DNA of 31,940 nucleotides. Origin: a virus. A program made the position numbers and the translations under genes. Below, in pieces: positions 6,246-24,808 of this stretch. The DNA is taken from positions 1 through 31,940 of the IMG/VR virus record IMGVR_UViG_3300030118_003559. One strand, written 5' to 3'. The notes below the pieces were generated by a model. It was not told the origin of the DNA, ran no database searches, and saw nothing but the letters and a program-made list of their open reading frames with translations. The first letter of the stretch is position 1. Every line of letters begins with the position of its first letter.

Positions 6246-6397
6246 GCAAATATGCTATATATAAGTTTCCATAAAATAAAAAATAAAACTACACCTATTG
6301 CTATAATTTTACCTTTATCAAATATTCTACCACTTAACCAATTTGAAACCACAAAGTATTGTACATTTTCTATTGTTCTATTCCAATATTTTCTCAT
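6242..6397 (-). CDS. Small single-pass membrane protein (51 aa)
   Basis: Starts at ATG 6397, sharing one base with the TAA of the CDGSH-like ORF, and ends at TGA 6242-6244, overlapping the endolysin ATG. The N-terminal 30 residues are hydrophilic (MRKYWNRTIENVQYF). The C terminus holds one membrane helix (about 31-50, IIAIGVVLFFILWKLIYSIF). Coupling to the endolysin suggests a lysis-related role such as a small holin or antiholin, by context only. Confidence 0.7.
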   Translation of the reverse strand: MRKYWNRTIENVQYFVVSNWLSGRIFDKGKIIAIGVVLFFILWKLIYSIFA

Positions 6398-6480
6398 TAT
6401 TTATAATTTAGGTGTGAACCATCACAATACCCTTCACTTTGTTGAGTATTACCACATTCACATTTAGGTTTATTTTCCAT
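6397..6480 (-). CDS. CDGSH-like iron-sulphur mini-protein (27 aa)
   Basis: The ATG at 6480 overlaps the end of the 142-aa membrane gene (stop at 6470) by 11 bases. The TAA at 6397-6399 overlaps the next ATG by one base. The peptide holds CECGNTQQSEGYCDGSH (residues 7-23). It keeps C-x-C, a Thr three residues after the second Cys, and the CDGSH signature that binds a [2Fe-2S] cluster with three Cys and one His in mitoNEET-type proteins. The Cys-to-Cys loop is one residue longer than in the classic C-x-C-x2-[ST]-x3-P-x-C-D-G-[SAT]-H, and the Pro is absent (E16 at that place). A 27-residue stand-alone CDGSH unit would be very small. Cluster binding is inferred. Confidence 0.65.
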   Translation of the reverse strand: MENKPKCECGNTQQSEGYCDGSHLNYK

Positions 6481-12909: not shown

Positions 12910-13863
12910 TTAGTTAGCTGAATTTGTAATACCATATGTGGTAATATCATCAATAATTCCATACTGTACACCTGCAGTAAATCTCATTACTACTCGTACA
13001 TTTTGTGAACCATCAAGATCAGCCATATCAATTACTTTAACCTCGTTATGGTCTGCAAGTAATCCTGTACCAAAGAAAAGGTTAGATTTCTCTGCTGCTA
13101 TTGCTTTGTTATCTGCAAGTCCATTAGCTACAAATATTTTTACTCCATCAAAAGATAGTGAACCATTGTTCCACCATTGAGTACCTTGTGCATTTGTACC
13201 TGCTGCACCTAAACCAGAACTTCCAAATCCACCTAATGCTCTTACATATGCTCTTGCAATGTTTTGTGAAACATAGATGTTTAAATCTTCACTACCATAA
13301 AGTGTAGAAGGTATTGCATCTACAAGTGAACCAAGTTGTGCAATAACATTTGAAGATGTTACTGTAGTACCTGCTACCTCTTGTGCTGCAGGTAATCCTG
13401 CATCTAATGAAATAAGTTTAGTTAAACCATCAAACTGACCATTGTTAGATGTGTTACCATCCCAAATAGATTGTTCAGTACGTTGTGCTACTTTAGATGC
13501 TACATGAGCAATTAAGAAATCACTAAATGATGGTGGTAAATCCTGATGTGCAGAATATCCCATACCTATTGCTTCCCAATCAGATTGAAAATCTTTTTTA
13601 CAAAGTTGTAAGTTTACTTGTTGAAACTCTGGTTGTAATACTTTTTCTGTAAGTGTAATTGTAGATGTAGGATCAAAATCACAAGTTGCATCTTTTACAA
13701 TTGCATTTGTATCTACTTTCTTAATTACCTCTTTAAACTTTACGTTAGGTTTTACAGTAATACCACCACCTTCAATAGTAGCACCACTTAATAATGCTGC
13801 AGAAATATACTCTCCTGCAAACTCACCTGCATAAGTTGTTGTTATACTTGTTGTTGTTGCCAT
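12910..13863 (-). CDS. Major capsid protein, HK97 fold
   Basis: 317 aa. It follows the scaffold-like gene, as usual for the head module. Length and composition (Ala, Gly, Thr, Asp rich) fit. It shows an E-loop/spine-type helix region, and the C-terminal stretch KVIDMADLDGSQNVRVVMRF, then TAGVQYGIIDDIT, resembles the end of HK97-fold capsids of Bacteroidota phages. Other marks are KDFQSDWEAIGMG (88-100), VAQRTEQSIWDGN (126-138) and STLYGSEDLNIYVSQNIARA (186-205). No delta domain of its own is evident at the N terminus, so the separate 196-aa protein likely serves as scaffold. A strong terminator follows. Confidence 0.85.
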   Translation of the reverse strand: MATTTSITTTYAGEFAGEYISAALLSGATIEGGGITVKPNVKFKEVIKKVDTNAIVKDATCDFDPTSTITLTEKVLQPEFQQVNLQLCKKDFQSDWEAIGMGYSAHQDLPPSFSDFLIAHVASKVAQRTEQSIWDGNTSNNGQFDGLTKLISLDAGLPAAQEVAGTTVTSSNVIAQLGSLVDAIPSTLYGSEDLNIYVSQNIARAYVRALGGFGSSGLGAAGTNAQGTQWWNNGSLSFDGVKIFVANGLADNKAIAAEKSNLFFGTGLLADHNEVKVIDMADLDGSQNVRVVMRFTAGVQYGIIDDITTYGITNSAN

Positions 13864-13869
13864 TTTTTA

Positions 13870-14460
13870 CTATTTATTTTTTAAGTTAGCTATTTTTGAA
13901 AGCACTCTATCGTATGTTGTTTGTGTTCTCTTTTGAGCATACAAGTTCATTACTTTCTTTGTTTCCTTTTCAGGGTTATGTTTAATTTTCTCAACAGGTT
14001 CTTCTACTGCTGATAATTCTTCTTTAGTTTCTGGTTGAGGTTCTTCTGCACTCATTTCATCTTTCTTTTCAATCATGCCTTTGATTTCCTCAATCATTTC
14101 TTTCACCTCTGCCAATTCTTCTTTAGTTGCATATTGCATTTCTTCTTTTTCTTCTTCTAAATTTTCCTCTTTAGATGCTTCTTCTTCAGCAGGTTCTTCT
14201 GCTGCTCCAATAGATGCAATAATACCTTCTTCTTCAACTTTGAGCATCTCTCCATCTTCTAAAGTGTATTCACCTACAGGTAGTGCTACTTTTTCATCTT
14301 CTGTTACAATAAATACTTCACTTCCTGCAGCAAAATTTTCACTTTCTATAACAGTACCATTTTCCAAAGTCGCTTGTGCTAATTTTACTTCTTGGGTTTC
14401 TTCTTTAAGTTCAACTCCAAGAACCTCTTTTACTTTGTTTAACATATCTGTTGCTTTCAT
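13870..14460 (-). CDS. Scaffold-like, highly acidic capsid assembly protein
   Basis: 196 aa. Residues 1-85 hold a compact, Val/Glu-rich domain with a repeated beta-hairpin look (LENGTVIESENFAAG, VGEYTLEDGEMLKVEEEG). Residues 86-160 are extremely acidic (EEPAEEEASKEENLEEEKEE) and coiled-coil-like (YATKEELAEVKEMIEEIK). The C terminus is basic (QKRTQTTYDRVLSKIANLKNK from 175), a usual site for capsid binding by scaffolds. Position just upstream of the capsid gene supports the call. Confidence 0.75.
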   Translation of the reverse strand: MKATDMLNKVKEVLGVELKEETQEVKLAQATLENGTVIESENFAAGSEVFIVTEDEKVALPVGEYTLEDGEMLKVEEEGIIASIGAAEEPAEEEASKEENLEEEKEEMQYATKEELAEVKEMIEEIKGMIEKKDEMSAEEPQPETKEELSAVEEPVEKIKHNPEKETKKVMNLYAQKRTQTTYDRVLSKIANLKNK

Positions 14461-14498: not shown

Positions 14499-14843
14499 TT
14501 ATGTAAGTAATCTACTACCTGATTGTGCAATTTTAATTGCATCTCTTGTTCTTCTAAATTTAGTTTTAAGTACATTTTCTGCAGTATCAAGTGTTTTTAC
14601 TGCATCATTTGCACCTAAATCTTGTGCAAGTTTTCTTAATCTACTTGCTTCTTTTTGTAATTCTTCTATCTCTTGCATTACTTTGTAAAGTTCTTTTTCT
14701 GTTGTTTGAGCAACTTTATTTAATCTTAATAAAACATCATAAGGAGTAATTGCATCTGCTTTTTTTAAGATATTTTCTATTCTTCCCAACTCAACTTTCT
14801 CTTTACCTAACTTTGTAAGTATTTTTTTTACTTTTGAATCCAT
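14499..14843 (-). CDS. Small helical protein, paralogue 3 of 3
   Basis: 114 aa, mainly helical, starting MDSKVKKILTKLGKEKVELG. It shares this start pattern (MDxKxxxILxKL) with the two genes upstream (14846-15241 and 15245-15589). The body is heptad-rich (KEASRLRKLAQDLGAND) with a basic C terminus (KFRRTRDAIKIAQSGS). It lies between the protease and scaffold genes, so it probably takes part in head assembly. No known family is recognised. Confidence 0.7.
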   Translation of the reverse strand: MDSKVKKILTKLGKEKVELGRIENILKKADAITPYDVLLRLNKVAQTTEKELYKVMQEIEELQKEASRLRKLAQDLGANDAVKTLDTAENVLKTKFRRTRDAIKIAQSGSRLLT

Positions 14844-14845
14844 AA

Positions 14846-15241
14846 TTATTTTGGTTCTTTATATAAACTTTTCATATTAGATATTACTTGTGTTAATCTT
14901 CTAATAAGTTCATCAGATTTAACCATTTCAGGTACGCTTTGTGGTCTTACATCTAATTCATTAAGTGATTTTACAATCATACCAAAATCTTGTGTAATTT
15001 TTATAATTTGTTTTTCTGATGTATCTGTAAAAACATCCCAATCACTATACACTTTTTTGTATTGTAAATATGCTTTATCAATTTTTTGTTCTTCTCTTGC
15101 AATAGAATTATCTAATTTATCTAATTCTTTAAGTATTGTACTTGGTTTTTTTGCAAGTTCAATCTTTTCTATTTTTTGTAAAGATTGTTTTTGTTGTTCT
15201 TCACTTAACTTTGTAAGTATCTTTTTTGTTTTTGCATCCAT
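14846..15241 (-). CDS. Small helical protein, paralogue 2 of 3
   Basis: 131 aa, starting MDAKTKKILTKLSEEQQKQS. It is related to the flanking genes by its N terminus. The middle (ILKELDKLDNSIAREEQKID, 36-55) is a probable coiled coil, and it contains a YSDWDVFTD stretch absent from the other two. The start lies 3 bases after the upstream stop, so the three genes read as one transcript. Function is unknown; by position it belongs to the head module. Confidence 0.7.
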   Translation of the reverse strand: MDAKTKKILTKLSEEQQKQSLQKIEKIELAKKPSTILKELDKLDNSIAREEQKIDKAYLQYKKVYSDWDVFTDTSEKQIIKITQDFGMIVKSLNELDVRPQSVPEMVKSDELIRRLTQVISNMKSLYKEPK

Positions 15242-15244
15242 ATT

Positions 15245-15589
15245 TTAAAAGTTATTTATAAATCCTTTCATTTTTGTAGCAGTATTTAGTCCTTTAAACT
15301 TGTTTACTACTTTGTCAAACACATCTATAGTATTGGCTTTAGGAATACCCAACTTGTTAAGTAGGTTTGTATATTCTCTTGCTTGTTTTTTATTATCCTC
15401 TACTTTTGCTTCTGTGCTATAATATCTATTCAATAACTGTGATACTTCTTTTTTAAGTGCTACAGCATCTCTTTCTAATCTCTGTACTTCTGCATCTATT
15501 TCTTTTGTAGTTATTTGAAACTTTTCTAATGTCAAATCAACCTTTTGTGTAGAAAACTTTTGTAGTATTTCGTTAGTTTTATTATCCAT
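15245..15589 (-). CDS. Small helical protein, paralogue 1 of 3
   Basis: 114 aa, starting MDNKTNEILQKFSTQKVDLT. This is the most divergent N terminus of the three but has the same pattern and length. It is heptad-rich (IDAEVQRLERDAVALKKEVS, 32-51) and then basic. The start at 15589 lies about 36 bases after the 47-aa Cys-rich gene. It probably arose by tandem duplication with the next two genes. Confidence 0.7.
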   Translation of the reverse strand: MDNKTNEILQKFSTQKVDLTLEKFQITTKEIDAEVQRLERDAVALKKEVSQLLNRYYSTEAKVEDNKKQAREYTNLLNKLGIPKANTIDVFDKVVNKFKGLNTATKMKGFINNF

Positions 15590-15625: not shown

Positions 15626-15769
15626 TTATGTTCCATCTCCTGTTATATTACCAATACCTTGTGCTTGGTAACTTCCATCACAACACTTTCTTGAATATGT
15701 TCCATCAGGACATAAACAAGCTCTTTTATCACTTTGTGGTGAAGGGTTTCTTTCTTTGTAATCTCTCAT
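15626..15769 (-). CDS. Cys-rich mini-protein with CDGSH-like motif (47 aa)
   Basis: The ATG at 15769 overlaps the protease TGA (ATGA) and the TAA is at 15626-15628. The peptide contains CLCPDGTYSRKCCDGSY (18-34): C-x-C, then nine residues, then C-D-G-S. Spacing is identical to the 27-aa protein at 6397-6480, with Tyr in place of the terminal His and an extra Cys at 29. After it comes QAQGIGNITG. Similar 'CCDGS-x-QAQGIG' peptides recur in Bacteroidota phages as I recall, with unknown function. Iron-sulphur or zinc binding is inferred. The coupling to the protease suggests a virion or head-assembly role. Confidence 0.7.
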   Translation of the reverse strand: MRDYKERNPSPQSDKRACLCPDGTYSRKCCDGSYQAQGIGNITGDGT

Positions 15770-16773
15770 TTTATTGGTACACAATTTGGAACTCTTCTAC
15801 CATTTTTCATTTTAAATCCTATCATTTCATATCCTGCTTCACAAGGTTTTTTAAGTGATGCTTCTAATAAATCTAACTCTTTTAATTTAGAACCTGCCCA
15901 TCTTAAACCTGCTTTACCACCCCACAACAAGTAAGATATAGTACCACATGCTTCATTATCACTTTCATCATAGTATTCACCTGCTCTTGATAAATAACTA
16001 AACATTCTTTTTATAGTTTCTACTGTTATAGGTTCTTTTTTAGCTAATTGTGTTGCTCTAACTTTTCCTACTTGTGTAGCACACTTATTATTTACTTTTT
16101 CATTTAATTCTATACCTCTTTTTGCATTGTTAGATACTGCATCTGGGTAATCTGCATATGATTCAAGTTCTTCACCTGTTAATATTTGTTTTAATTCTGT
16201 AATTAGTGCTTCTGCTTCTGCTTCTTCTATTTTTGCAAGTTCATTTGGTTCATTAGGTCTTTCTGCCCTATCTGCAAAGTAACCTTCTATACTAAATCCT
16301 TTTACCTTTCCTGTTTTTACATAATCATTCCAAACATCATCATTTAAAACTTTCATAGATAACATCCAAGTACCTATTGGCATATCCATACCATATGCTG
16401 CACTTTTATCTTTTTTAGAATCTTCTACTAACCATGATTCAACTGCTACTAAACCATTTAATGGCATACCATGTTCTAATGTTGATTTATCATAGTTACC
16501 TCTTATAAAAAATAATTCACTTGCTTTTCTTACTGTATCTCTTGAAAAATAAATATAGTATTCTTTATCTTCTGTTTTTCTGTATATAGGTTTGTTAGGA
16601 ATAAGAGCAGCACCCATTAGAATACGCTTCTCTTTGTTCACTTCTGCAAATTTAACCTCATGGTTTTTAAGTGCAATAAAATCTTCTTCAATCGCAGGGT
16701 TTTCTACTATAGATACTGCTTCAATTCCTGAAACCTCATCTTCTTCATCTATAAAAAGTTCTACTATATCCAT
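15766..16773 (-). CDS. Prohead protease, XkdF-like, with C-terminal domain
   Basis: 335 aa. Residues 1-170 match the XkdF-like serine protease domain: EHGMPLNGLVAVESW (100-114) with H101 as likely catalytic His, MPIGTWMLSMKV (131-142), then DDVWNDYVKTGKVKGFSIEGYF (split at 145-166) with S161 as likely nucleophile. Residues 205-300 form a second, widespread phage domain of unknown role (AVSNNAKRGIELNEKV and RAGEYYDESDNEACGTISYL). It would cleave the scaffold during head maturation. A TTATTGTA box precedes the start. Confidence 0.8.
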   Translation of the reverse strand: MDIVELFIDEEDEVSGIEAVSIVENPAIEEDFIALKNHEVKFAEVNKEKRILMGAALIPNKPIYRKTEDKEYYIYFSRDTVRKASELFFIRGNYDKSTLEHGMPLNGLVAVESWLVEDSKKDKSAAYGMDMPIGTWMLSMKVLNDDVWNDYVKTGKVKGFSIEGYFADRAERPNEPNELAKIEEAEAEALITELKQILTGEELESYADYPDAVSNNAKRGIELNEKVNNKCATQVGKVRATQLAKKEPITVETIKRMFSYLSRAGEYYDESDNEACGTISYLLWGGKAGLRWAGSKLKELDLLEASLKKPCEAGYEMIGFKMKNGRRVPNCVPIK

Positions 16774-21500: not shown

Positions 21501-22362
21501 TTCTTAAATCTATAACCTCACCATTAGAATATGTAACAGAAAAATTACCTACAGTTGCTATATTACCTTCATCTTGAAATAATCCACCTGTTTTGTTATG
21601 TAACCATAAATACAAATTATAAAATTGTGGATTTGTAACATTAAAAAAATCTTCACTAAAAGTTATACCATATTGAAATTCTATTGCTTTTATTATAGGA
21701 TAAACTCTCAATGCAGGTTTTAGTTGTGATAATTCTAAACCATGTTGTGTTCCTGCTTCATATGCTATATTGTTTTGTGTAGCTGTGTTTGCAGTAGAAT
21801 CACTTGTATCATATATAAATCTTTTAGTATGTGATATTAATGGAAATATAATTGCATCTGTATAGGTAACCATTTTAGATGTTATATCTAATCCATCACT
21901 TAAATATGTTTTTATGTTTGCATCAGAATATGTAAATGTAAAATCTGATGTAATCATTTTTAATGCACTTAAATAATCATCTCCTACAAGATCAGGTAGG
22001 TTTACAGTACTACCAAAAAATGTTAATCTATATGTATGTGGTTTATTTAAAAGTAGTGATGTACCTTCTAATTTTATTTTACCTTTTTTAAATGGGTTGT
22101 GATTTAGATATAGTATAGCATCAAACTTCTTTCTTGCATCAAAATCTAATATATTGTAATTGTAAAAATGTTTAAATATTTTGTTGTTGTTTTTAGAAGC
22201 AGGTACATTAAAGGTTTTTGTAAAATCAGTAAATACTTTTTTTATATCCCTTATATCCTGTATTGCTTGTGTAAGTTCAATACTTTCATCTTTAAATAAT
22301 TCTATATGTTGATATGATGATGATACATCTTCATTCTTTATGTAAAGCTGTAATTTTAACAT
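18529..22362 (-). CDS. Large tail tip / baseplate structural protein
   Basis: 1277 aa, the largest gene. The N-terminal half (1-700) begins MLKLQLYIKNEDVSSSYQHI and includes IRDIKKVFTDFTKTFNVPAS (37-56), a stretch common in tail proteins of Bacteroidota phages as I recall. The centre (about 710-790) has CYTADSTIELADNTLLKADL and a region resembling fibronectin-like beta repeats (TAVTLRGQINQLGEIGD, DEYGFVYTS). The last 250 residues are Gly/Ser/Asn-rich and include TSREDAQNDAKEFGSSS and paired Cys. It is likely the tail hub or tip with carbohydrate- or receptor-binding parts. Exact equivalence to known baseplate genes is unproven. Confidence 0.7.
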   Translation of the reverse strand: MLKLQLYIKNEDVSSSYQHIELFKDESIELTQAIQDIRDIKKVFTDFTKTFNVPASKNNNKIFKHFYNYNILDFDARKKFDAILYLNHNPFKKGKIKLEGTSLLLNKPHTYRLTFFGSTVNLPDLVGDDYLSALKMITSDFTFTYSDANIKTYLSDGLDITSKMVTYTDAIIFPLISHTKRFIYDTSDSTANTATQNNIAYEAGTQHGLELSQLKPALRVYPIIKAIEFQYGITFSEDFFNVTNPQFYNLYLWLHNKTGGLFQDEGNIATVGNFSVTYSNGEVIDLRNNYFTTPPSDQSTGRAKKERTLDVTVVPSNNSVKYNLVIFENGNVFQRYDDLEGEYSDIRNLPLNRGDYSFGIETDTPSTYEIRFYVQRKRRLSGIADIHFTGTASVLSDVTLNTSNQLPEIKVIDFLTGLFKMFNLTAFQNDEGVIVVETLDDFYNRSPNKWDITEHLDKQSATVDSVLPFKQIDFTYEGLDNFFAKNHKELFNIDWGENRFQASAKFEGETYTVSLPFEHFKYERLVNVADGANTNAQWGWSADIKQQPNLGKPLLFYPILKTQQIGVIDSGGTLTSQASIYIPSNSVSTSLINILSTDGSENINFNAEKNEFTNVPYQKTLFDQYYKKYVTEIFDKQRRLTTVKAYLPIKMLHNLSLADKVIIFDRLYKINKITTNFETNLSSLELINIKEEVVGIIETQTEEIQPIVPLKFTPDARCYTADSTIELADNTLLKADLSCANAELPIVTFDEEVPQETSISNIPVVVDVPLVVTVADITAPDVSQLTNNSSTAVTLRGQINQLGEIGDTPSLDEYGFVYTSTYSKLVGDDLDTIIGTSGVTQHKITDDKTIGEKLLELTGLTDPETIYYRFYTRTNTDSNFDEAEAMTVITSSSTVPSSPYSETTNSINYKISTTSDNPADTIRTIRIKTDAGDLVDYVTSGAFEIQSKIVPYVVEGIPIPSGAIATQYNVTSNGLSGMLETQMSLPATIGGVKVNSGTGFAYSATSREDAQNDAKEFGSSSIPFKDVAIPSGTPNINYSTTNQNYNLFYNEGTAVYTNWNDERKSDFGFISGSATVTTATKATVPDGYYAQWGWNGDGTPQNFPQKLLNCGFSVKVVNGIITERQQFGTCYKIVLNQISNHFSSGFAQSKTNTNVIGFGFSEIPPLSDLADIRGSLATQSDCGDLLLGVSSFYHTGAGREPDVGDKVKINRKSNYDGGVSSFGVFAKDFGTGSPKYLAATLLEDKGDRQGVMTLFTIVGFIVIETATATVVTKYECS

Positions 22363-23348
22363 TAACGTACACTATTTATTTTTGTAAATGCAAATTCAAA
22401 TTCTATTGTATAATTTATAAGTTTATCATTTAAACTTGTTTTAAAAGCTAATGATTTTGTTTTTGGTATTATAGGTAATGTTTTGCTTTCATATCTTATC
22501 CATACATTTTCTGTTAAAAACAATTCTTCTATAGTTTGGTTCATATCTTCTTTTATAAACCCTGTATTAAGAGTAAGTGATGTTTGTCCATTAACATTAT
22601 ATCTTTCACTTTGCCCTGCATAAGTAGGATAACTTGTAGTATTGTTTACTAATGTGTTTCTTCTAAACCTTTCATCAGTAACATTTAAACTTTCTATGCT
22701 TTTCTTGAACATATATAAATCCTGAAATGCACCATACTTATTTACAAATGTTATTTTATAAGGTGTAAACTTGGGTTCACATACATTGTTTACTGTTATT
22801 GTTTTTCTTAATGTAGCATCATCAGTATCAAATATTTGTATAGTAGAACTGTTTGCAGGTATTGTAATGTATTGTATTTTTTGATTAGTGTTTCCACTAT
22901 CTGTTACTTGTGTTGTTGTAGAATCTATTATATATTTTCCAACACCTTCTGCAAATATTGGTAATTTACCTGCTGTACTTTCTGGTAAGTATATATTGTT
23001 TGATGATATAAGTGCATTTGTTGATAGTTGTGGATTTACCTCATCTTCAAAAAAACCATATCCATCTAATGCTAAATAAGTATTTGTTTGTGGGTTACTA
23101 TAGGTAAAAGGTTCATTGTTTTCATCAAATAAATTTGCAATAGCTGTAACCCATACACATTTAGATAAATAATCATTATTAAAAGTTACATCTATATAAT
23201 CTCTTACAAGATTTGATACTTCAAAATTAATAACATCATCTGCATTAATTCTTTCTTTTTGTATTGTATATTTTAAATCAGAACTTTCATAAGAACCTGA
23301 TGTACCTGTGTATATGTATAAACTTAATTGTGCTGTACTTATTGCCAT
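22362..23348 (-). CDS. Tail structural protein (distal-tail-like)
   Basis: 328 aa, mixed beta composition (LSLYIYTGTSGSYESSDLKY, then FEVSNLVRDYIDVTFNND). It shares a one-base junction with the 1277-aa gene. The region KITFVNKYGAFQDLYMFKKS (200-220) is a good family mark, seen in Bacteroidota phage tail proteins as I recall. It probably belongs to the tail tip. Dit-like function is suggested by order (between the tail chaperone block and the large tip protein) but not shown. Confidence 0.6.
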   Translation of the reverse strand: MAISTAQLSLYIYTGTSGSYESSDLKYTIQKERINADDVINFEVSNLVRDYIDVTFNNDYLSKCVWVTAIANLFDENNEPFTYSNPQTNTYLALDGYGFFEDEVNPQLSTNALISSNNIYLPESTAGKLPIFAEGVGKYIIDSTTTQVTDSGNTNQKIQYITIPANSSTIQIFDTDDATLRKTITVNNVCEPKFTPYKITFVNKYGAFQDLYMFKKSIESLNVTDERFRRNTLVNNTTSYPTYAGQSERYNVNGQTSLTLNTGFIKEDMNQTIEELFLTENVWIRYESKTLPIIPKTKSLAFKTSLNDKLINYTIEFEFAFTKINSVR

Positions 23349-23350
23349 AA

Positions 23351-24808
23351 CTATAAATTTGTAAAACTACCTGAACCACCAATATCACAATTTGCTATTG
23401 CAACATTTGTTACTATTCCATTATTATCTATCAACCATAAAATATATGAACCTACACCTATACCTGCTCCTGCATTTATTGATACAGTACTTACTGCATA
23501 ATACAAGTTTTGTCCTGCAAAAGCAGTACCTTGTTTACATACTGTTTTACCTTTTCCTGTTTCTTTATTAGAAGCTGTTGAAACTATTGCAGTTGTTGTA
23601 GGAAATGTACCATCACAAAAATCTGTTGGTGATGCTTTACCAGATGATATAAAATAATCATTGCTACCACATACACCTAAACTTGCAGGTTGTGTTATTG
23701 TTTTAGTACAGGTTAGTGTTTGTGAACCATCTCCTGTATTTGAATAACCACTTGGTATTAAAACTGTAAAATCTATTGACCTGTTTGTTTCTGTTGTAAC
23801 CTCTGCAAAATTAATAGGTGAAAAACCTTGTATTGTACCTAATTGTGTTTTACCTATATGTATATCACCTCTTGTACTTATACCTTGTTCTGTAAGATTT
23901 GCAGTATCACAATCAAAAGTAGGTAATGTAGAGGTCGCTTGTTGTTTAAATGTTTTAGAACATATTACTGTTGCTCCTGCATTTGTATATCCTGCAGGTG
24001 CAGTTAAATCAAAAAATAAAGTAACATCTATTGCACTACTACCTGAATTTGCTGCAACACTTGTAATATGCCCACCACCTGATGTTAAACTTTTTGCTGT
24101 AATTTCTGCTATTGATGTAGGGTCAGTTATTGTACCATTTTGTGCTATACTACCACCACCATTAGCAAGATTTGCTGCTGTACAATCAAATGCTGAACTT
24201 AAACCATTTACTGTAACTGCTATAGATTGAACTGCAGTACAAGTACCAGATGCACTTTCAAATGCTTCTACATATATTGTTTTAGTACCACCTATTTGAT
24301 TAGATGTTAGTGTAAGTGTATTAGAATTTACTCCTGCTGTAACTAAATTTGTATGGAAGTTTATTATGTTATATCCTGCTATTGAACCACCTGAAAAGTA
24401 AGAAGATAAATCTACAGTTTTACTATTACCACCTACTGTTATTGTTTGAGCAGGAATACTCCCACTTGTTGTTACATTTTGTGTACAAGTTGTACCTGCT
24501 ACAAATGCAGGTTGTGTTGCTGATACATCACAAGTAATAAATCCATCTGTATCTGTATTACTAAATCCTGTAGGAATCTGTATTGTAAGGGTTACTGTTC
24601 TACTTGTAGGTGAAGTTACTGTTGCATACTTTTCTGTACTTACTGCTGTTATTGTTCCATAATCTAATGTAGGTAATGTTAAAATACCTTGTTGGTTTAT
24701 ACTAAAATTTCTTGGGTTTGCTATAAAGCAATCAAATACAGGTGTAGGTACTGTTGGTTCACTATATGCTAAAAAATAAGGTGATCTTACATTAATTTTT
24801 GTACTCAT
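23351..24808 (-). CDS. Tail protein with three FDC...QPA repeats
   Basis: 485 aa, Ser/Thr/Gly-rich. Three repeats of about 75-90 residues begin with FDC (25, 207, 298) and close near a second Cys (93, 283, 367) followed by a Q-rich turn (DVSATQPA, KTFKQQATS, KTITQPAS). Each ends in a 'GY/FSNTG' and 'C-x-K-T' type strand. A beta-sandwich-like segment (IPAQTITVGGNSKTVDLSSYF split at 118-138) lies between repeats 1 and 2. The Cys pair could form a disulphide in each repeat. It is probably an extended beta-rich tail or surface protein; its role in attachment is inferred. Confidence 0.65.
   Translation of the reverse strand: MSTKINVRSPYFLAYSEPTVPTPVFDCFIANPRNFSINQQGILTLPTLDYGTITAVSTEKYATVTSPTSRTVTLTIQIPTGFSNTDTDGFITCDVSATQPAFVAGTTCTQNVTTSGSIPAQTITVGGNSKTVDLSSYFSGGSIAGYNIINFHTNLVTAGVNSNTLTLTSNQIGGTKTIYVEAFESASGTCTAVQSIAVTVNGLSSAFDCTAANLANGGGSIAQNGTITDPTSIAEITAKSLTSGGGHITSVAANSGSSAIDVTLFFDLTAPAGYTNAGATVICSKTFKQQATSTLPTFDCDTANLTEQGISTRGDIHIGKTQLGTIQGFSPINFAEVTTETNRSIDFTVLIPSGYSNTGDGSQTLTCTKTITQPASLGVCGSNDYFISSGKASPTDFCDGTFPTTTAIVSTASNKETGKGKTVCKQGTAFAGQNLYYAVSTVSINAGAGIGVGSYILWLIDNNGIVTNVAIANCDIGGSGSFTNL

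Follow-up and report, generated by a model that had tools for sequence, protein, structure and literature searches.

A four-cysteine protein of the phage head module as a possible disulfide-stapled anchor for exchangeable domains

In a virus sequence of 31,940 nucleotides (IMG/VR record IMGVR_UViG_3300030118_003559, positions 1 to 31,940; hereafter the window), a 47-aa ORF that overlaps the prohead protease gene encodes four cysteines in an arrangement recalling CDGSH domains. The original prediction took it for one of two related mini metal-binding peptides in this genome. The question is what such a small protein does beside the capsid genes. The relevant features are as follows.

15626 to 15769, minus strand: 47-aa four-cysteine protein of the "CCDG family", in the bare form that lacks a C-terminal extension, MRDYKERNPSPQSDKRACLCPDGTYSRKCCDGSYQAQGIGNITGDGT
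15674 to 15718, minus strand: core motif CLCPDGTYSRKCCDG, invariant columns in the family alignment
15716-15718, 15710-15712, 15683-15685 and 15680-15682, minus strand: codons of C1, C3, C12 and C13, respectively
15650 to 15661, minus strand: QGIG signature after the Cys module, attachment point of C-terminal modules in other members
15766 to 15769, minus strand: ATGA shared by the end of the protease gene and the start of the peptide gene, the most frequent single spacing among relatives
15766 to 16773, minus strand: XkdF-like prohead protease (Peptidase_S78_2, E 5e-12)
14499 to 15589, minus strand: three small coiled-coil-like ORFs (114, 131 and 114 aa) between peptide and scaffold
13870 to 14460, minus strand: scaffold-like protein; the C-terminal part of PHROG 24921 resembles it, and the N-terminal part is the protease
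12910 to 13863, minus strand: putative major capsid protein (MCP), assigned by gene order and family (PHROG 11320, E 1e-39)

The ATG start codon of the 47-aa ORF shares four bases with the TGA of the protease ORF, and the ORF coordinates agree with this overlap, confirming the predicted coupling to the protease. A scan of IMG/VR with the 56-residue open frame revealed 393 confirmed relatives. When the ORF was compared with 122 relatives, 778, 938 and 1904 changes were found at codon positions 1, 2 and 3, and single-base codon changes were synonymous in 1142 cases vs 435 non-synonymous. The number of relatives, the third-position bias and the synonymous excess together demonstrate that the 47-aa ORF is a real coding gene and no chance ORF.

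The family is very widespread, with hundreds of members in IMG/VR; its motif pattern matched at least 120 stretches. The consensus is SPKGGKRGCLCxDGTYSxKCCDGSLQAQGIG, in which C1, C3, the Y, C12, C13 and the QG-G core are near-invariant. Arg at position -2 and Gly or Ala at -1 before C1 are also conserved (pattern [KR]R-[GA]-C). A lipoprotein anchor was considered for the G/A-C at the first cysteine and was rejected because a hydrophobic signal stretch is absent.

The 47-aa protein had no Pfam match at E≤1, and its sole PHROG match, at E 0.09, was not significant. The family profile had no match in PDB. tblastn of three family forms against the INPHARED isolate phages gave no match, the seven hits at E 2-3 being chance. 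In a Foldseek search of a viral library, a modelled 124-aa form of the family matched A0A516LRQ9 (40% identity, E 5e-9) and, weakly, the 47-aa fragment A0A6J7WJR7 (61% identity, E 0.06); both are uncharacterised viral proteins in UniProt, homologues of the family with no function recorded. A PDB fold search with the same form returned nothing at E≤0.001. Our literature search found no paper on the family and none tying CDGSH proteins to phages. The family thus appears to be undescribed, without curated family, isolate match or paper and with only uncharacterised UniProt relatives, which bears out the original claim of an undescribed phage family.

Among the cellular genomes scanned with a single peptide pattern, only two loci were found, one in a Bacteroidetes MAG contig and one in a masked, apparently chimeric stretch of a Woesearchaeota MAG. 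A general prophage origin of the gene was therefore ruled out within that scan. In the archaeal MAG chromosome (L322, CP070803.1), the four-Cys gene, scaffold and capsid genes stand beside the masked stretch; these phage head genes are probably an assembly chimera.

We used the MCP instead of the Cys motif as search anchor for loci, so that there was no selection on the motif. A family member was present in all loci that held both protease and MCP, 58/58 in the first set and 35/35 in the second, in agreement with the predicted association with XkdF-like proteases. The gene sits on the gene strand between the protease and the scaffold and MCP; the median distance is 1.1 kb to the protease match upstream, and 0.4 kb to the scaffold and 1.1 kb to the MCP downstream. 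In 151 of 314 loci, the start of the gene lies no more than 20 nt from the protease stop, and the commonest gap is -4 (ATGA). These findings show that the four-Cys gene belongs to the head module as a constant component. In the window, the 47-aa ORF is followed by the three coiled-coil-like ORFs, the scaffold-like protein, the putative MCP and the portal. The three consecutive small ORFs have similar N-termini (MDxKxxxILxK) and are present in only 3-7 of 196 related loci.

Flavobacterium phages have the terminases nearest to that of the window (50%), and Nonlabens phage P12024S has the nearest protease (44%), which makes a Bacteroidota host likely. The head module of P12024S/L (Inhavirus) resembles that of the window in having a related protease (44% identity) and a related MCP (~30%); it differs in that protease and scaffold-like region form one polypeptide (gp01, 349 aa). 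No four-Cys gene was found in seven P12024S-type loci, in which the protease and scaffold-like regions are adjacent or fused. The window protease and scaffold match the two halves of PHROG 24921. Since protease and scaffold are one protein in P12024S and correspond to halves of a single PHROG, the four-Cys gene lies at a fusion/fission point.

The part that follows QGIG varies among members. It is missing in the window copy and is a tail of 20-35 residues in some relatives; others carry a cysteine- and histidine-rich 70-aa domain with a confident predicted beta fold (pLDDT ~89) and no PDB analogue. The long members L103, L182 and L066/L080 end in repeats that we call Ig-like from our reading of the repeat sequence pattern, not from a profile match. 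One protein encoded in the window is homologous to the C-terminal part of these long members (E 1e-40 for L103):

23351 to 24808, minus strand: protein with Ig-like repeats

In L148, the C-terminal domain resembles ArabFuran-catal, an arabinofuranosidase-like domain (E 5e-6, above cutoff), and the ORF is open to the contig end. On a quick MCP tree of 92 rows, the C-terminal class, set by simple rules, changes 29 times. C-terminal modules are thus exchanged on a constant Cys module across the family, and in the long members they look like display-type domains.

Decoration proteins such as T4 Hoc and T5 pb10 combine a small constant part with a changing exposed domain (PMC10385173, PMC5292684, PMC7602432), and T4 Hoc, T5 pb10 and N4 gp17 bear Ig domains (PMC7602432). 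The four-Cys gene is likewise a neighbour of protease, scaffold and MCP in the head module, its product has a small constant part with variable C-terminal domains, and these domains are Ig-like in some members; the window copy has no extra domain. Unlike in Hoc, pb10 and gp17, the constant part here forms the N-terminus and would be stapled by its cysteines, cargo is lacking in many members (the window copy included), and the gene occurs in every protease and MCP locus examined. Pfam, PDB and PHROG revealed no sequence homology of the family to known decoration proteins. We infer a place in the virion from gene position and domain company. Whether the 47-aa protein is a disulfide-stapled head component that acts like a decoration or display protein, an anchor for exchangeable domains, is in our judgement evenly poised; by function, it would be a modular decoration protein, a kind already known.

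Whereas decoration proteins are usually dispensable, the four-Cys gene was present throughout these loci and may also have an essential role in assembly. Its universal presence, the basic N-terminus and the position of the gene before MCP and portal would suit an internal head protein or a neck/tail connector rather than an external decoration. The long C-terminal domains, of types known from phage exteriors, argue against such a role, which we consider unlikely. Scarcely different in probability is a partnership with the XkdF protease, in which the protein would be a small disulfide-rich inhibitor, cofactor or substrate coupled for stoichiometry. The ATGA coupling occurs in many lineages, and the conserved residues before C1 ([KR]R-[GA]-C) could form a cleavage site; however, a protease partner leaves the exchangeable Ig-like, ArabFuran-like and 70-aa C-terminal domains unexplained, and a search for the four-Cys gene came up empty in the isolate relative P12024S, whose homologous protease is joined to a scaffold-like region.

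The decoration reading includes disulfides between the cysteines. Among distinct cores from MCP-anchored loci, 65 were of the CCCC form and 5 of a CGNC form (C-x-G-x-DG-x-Y-x3-N-C), in which C3 and C12 are both gone and the rest of the module is unchanged; no core had lost a single cysteine. The joint loss was significant (Fisher 8e-8, not corrected for relatedness). A pattern scan revealed ~50 CGNC members beside protease and/or MCP in diverse backgrounds. On the MCP tree, for which some of the CGNC loci had been gathered by pattern, there are 10 changes of state, and well-supported branches force at least 7 of them; transfer of the small gene from one capsid lineage to another could have raised this number. 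Near-sister pairs differing by the double change are L170/L479, L449/L444 and L379/L378.

Because C3 and C12 are lost only together, and repeatedly on the tree, the cysteines most likely form the disulfides C3-C12 and C1-C13 rather than a metal site; joint loss is a prediction of paired disulfides and not of a four-Cys or three-Cys-one-His metal site. Such bridges would need an oxidised environment or would have to arise once the cell has lysed. AlphaFold modelled the 47-aa form poorly (pLDDT 61, pTM 0.29), and the bridges are not visible in that model. Two tail-module proteins (L513:5450 and L529:4828), homologues of the window protein at 22362-23348, contain an inserted loop C-R-G-N-D-G-x-Y-x3-N-C that repeats the pattern of the two-Cys peptide; this may be chance or a portable disulfide loop.

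Four near-invariant cysteines within 13 residues, the small size of the protein and phage assembly in a reducing cytoplasm would fit a structural Zn(Cys)4 knuckle steadying a small domain that binds scaffold or capsid. Many lineages, however, have G and N in place of C3 and C12 and retain C1 and C13 alone; two cysteines alone make a poor Zn site, and one remaining disulfide is chemically natural. The zinc knuckle is about as improbable as the protease partnership.

The original prediction related the 47-aa protein to a second peptide of the window:

6397 to 6480, minus strand: 27-aa CDGSH-like peptide of a separate family, outside the four-Cys system, MENKPKCECGNTQQSEGYCDGSHLNYK

Direct reading of the sequence verified that C-x-C-x9-C-D-G-S is present in both ORFs. 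In CDGSH domains the ligands are three Cys and one His, and the consensus reads Phi-C-X-C-XX-(S/T)-XXX-P-Phi-C-D-G-(S/T/A)-H (PMC3174974, PMC5859297). The window copy shares with these domains (PF09360) the string C-x-C...C-D-G-S; it departs from the consensus in its x9 spacing, the absence of P and the Y in place of H. Spacing, DG and the His site were counted in 71 distinct relatives from the capsid-anchored scans. C3 and C13 were separated by x9 in 46 and by x10 in 25, and the exact C-x-C-x9-CDGS occurred in only 14, so the x9 spacing is not the private variant that had been proposed. His occupied the ligand site in a single relative, the usual residues there being L, S or F, and no Pro was conserved. 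DG was kept in 79% and absent in 21%; natural members carry CNG, CQG, CGQ, CEE, CDP or CDD in place of CDG. The window copy retains all three ligand cysteines, but the recurrent CGNC variant has Gly in place of C3. In contrast to CDGSH domains, the 47-aa family thus has no His ligand, Pro motif, fixed spacing, fixed DG or Pfam match, and it can lose C3, jointly with C12. These features contradict the CDGSH-type metal site of the original prediction, and the proposal that C12 replaces the His ligand gave way to its covariation with C3, as a partner.

Comparison of the two families gave no better support for kinship. With no Pfam match at E≤1, the 47-aa protein does not match zf-CDGSH (PF09360), and the family profile matches no CDGSH chain in PDB. 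Alignment of the 47-aa and 27-aa family profiles by hhalign gave a probability of 21.6%. Of 87 contigs compared in one direction, 4 held both peptides, and of 47 in the reverse direction none did; many of these contigs are fragments, the reverse test was limited to the x9 pattern, and the single contig in which both had been seen before lies outside the 47. Of the two signs by which the original prediction was to be judged, conservation of the cysteines was found and joint recurrence of the two motifs was not. The shared x9 spacing in the window genome is best read as coincidence. A CDGSH beta-sandwich dimerisation module would have little room in 47 aa, and the low-confidence AlphaFold model shows none. 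Although both peptides contain the C-x-C-x9-C-D-G-S string and the common form has four conserved cysteines, a CDGSH-like mini metal or Fe-S peptide that is a sister of the 27-aa peptide, with C12 as substitute ligand, is highly improbable, being already contradicted by the loss of the required ligand C3 in the CGNC variant, by the variable spacing, DG and His site without conserved Pro, and by the lack of database matches, profile similarity and regular co-occurrence; CDGSH kinship was rejected on these grounds.

By its sequence pattern, the 27-aa peptide belongs to a separate, large phage CDGSH-like family, with the pattern C-x-C-G-x-[ST]-x-N-P-x-G-x-C-D-G-[ST]-H, one residue longer than classic CDGSH. 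Most of 115 pattern matches (L202-L320) look genuine, and many are ORFs of 25-45 aa. The family shows a weak zf-CDGSH match (13.7 bits; cutoff 29.5) and a weak PDB match to 3tbn. In some loci (L228, L244, L249, L250, L253, L257, L312 and L317), XkdF-like proteases carry the same CDGSH-like peptide as a C-terminal tail (VKGFSIEGFF...MSKTQCRKNGGCACGRTENPNGLCDGSHLK). This very large and apparently unstudied mini-CDGSH-like family is worth a study of its own.

We return to the decoration or display reading, under which the 47-aa protein would be the bare form of a constant head-module component shared by a large clade of phages that are uncultured and probably infect Bacteroidota. From a basic N-terminus rich in Ser and Pro, the chain would lead into a small knob, closed by C3-C12 nested within C1-C13 around a D-G turn, and then into QGIG. 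Translated together with the prohead protease, the protein would probably be added to the capsid while it assembles or afterwards, as a small cement or decoration protein; the disulfide-closed knob would dock on the capsid and leave the C-terminus free to carry display domains. In other phages, recombination would attach different exposed C-terminal domains to the constant anchor, and the window copy would be a cargo-free form, perhaps only a cement. A broader claim, which we make more tentatively and put at somewhat below even, is that the phages of this uncultured clade universally carry a disulfide-stapled anchor peptide on their heads and that it constitutes a natural display system, a 40-residue plug with interchangeable sugar-binding or Ig-like cargo whose second disulfide has repeatedly been gained or lost as a unit.

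An ORF that looked like chance is thus a signature gene of an abundant aquatic phage group absent from the isolate collection searched, and the four-Cys motif provides a simple DNA pattern for finding aquatic phages of this clade. If the decoration reading is true, these phages would possess a modular system for capsid display that comes with its own natural experiment in disulfide covariation.
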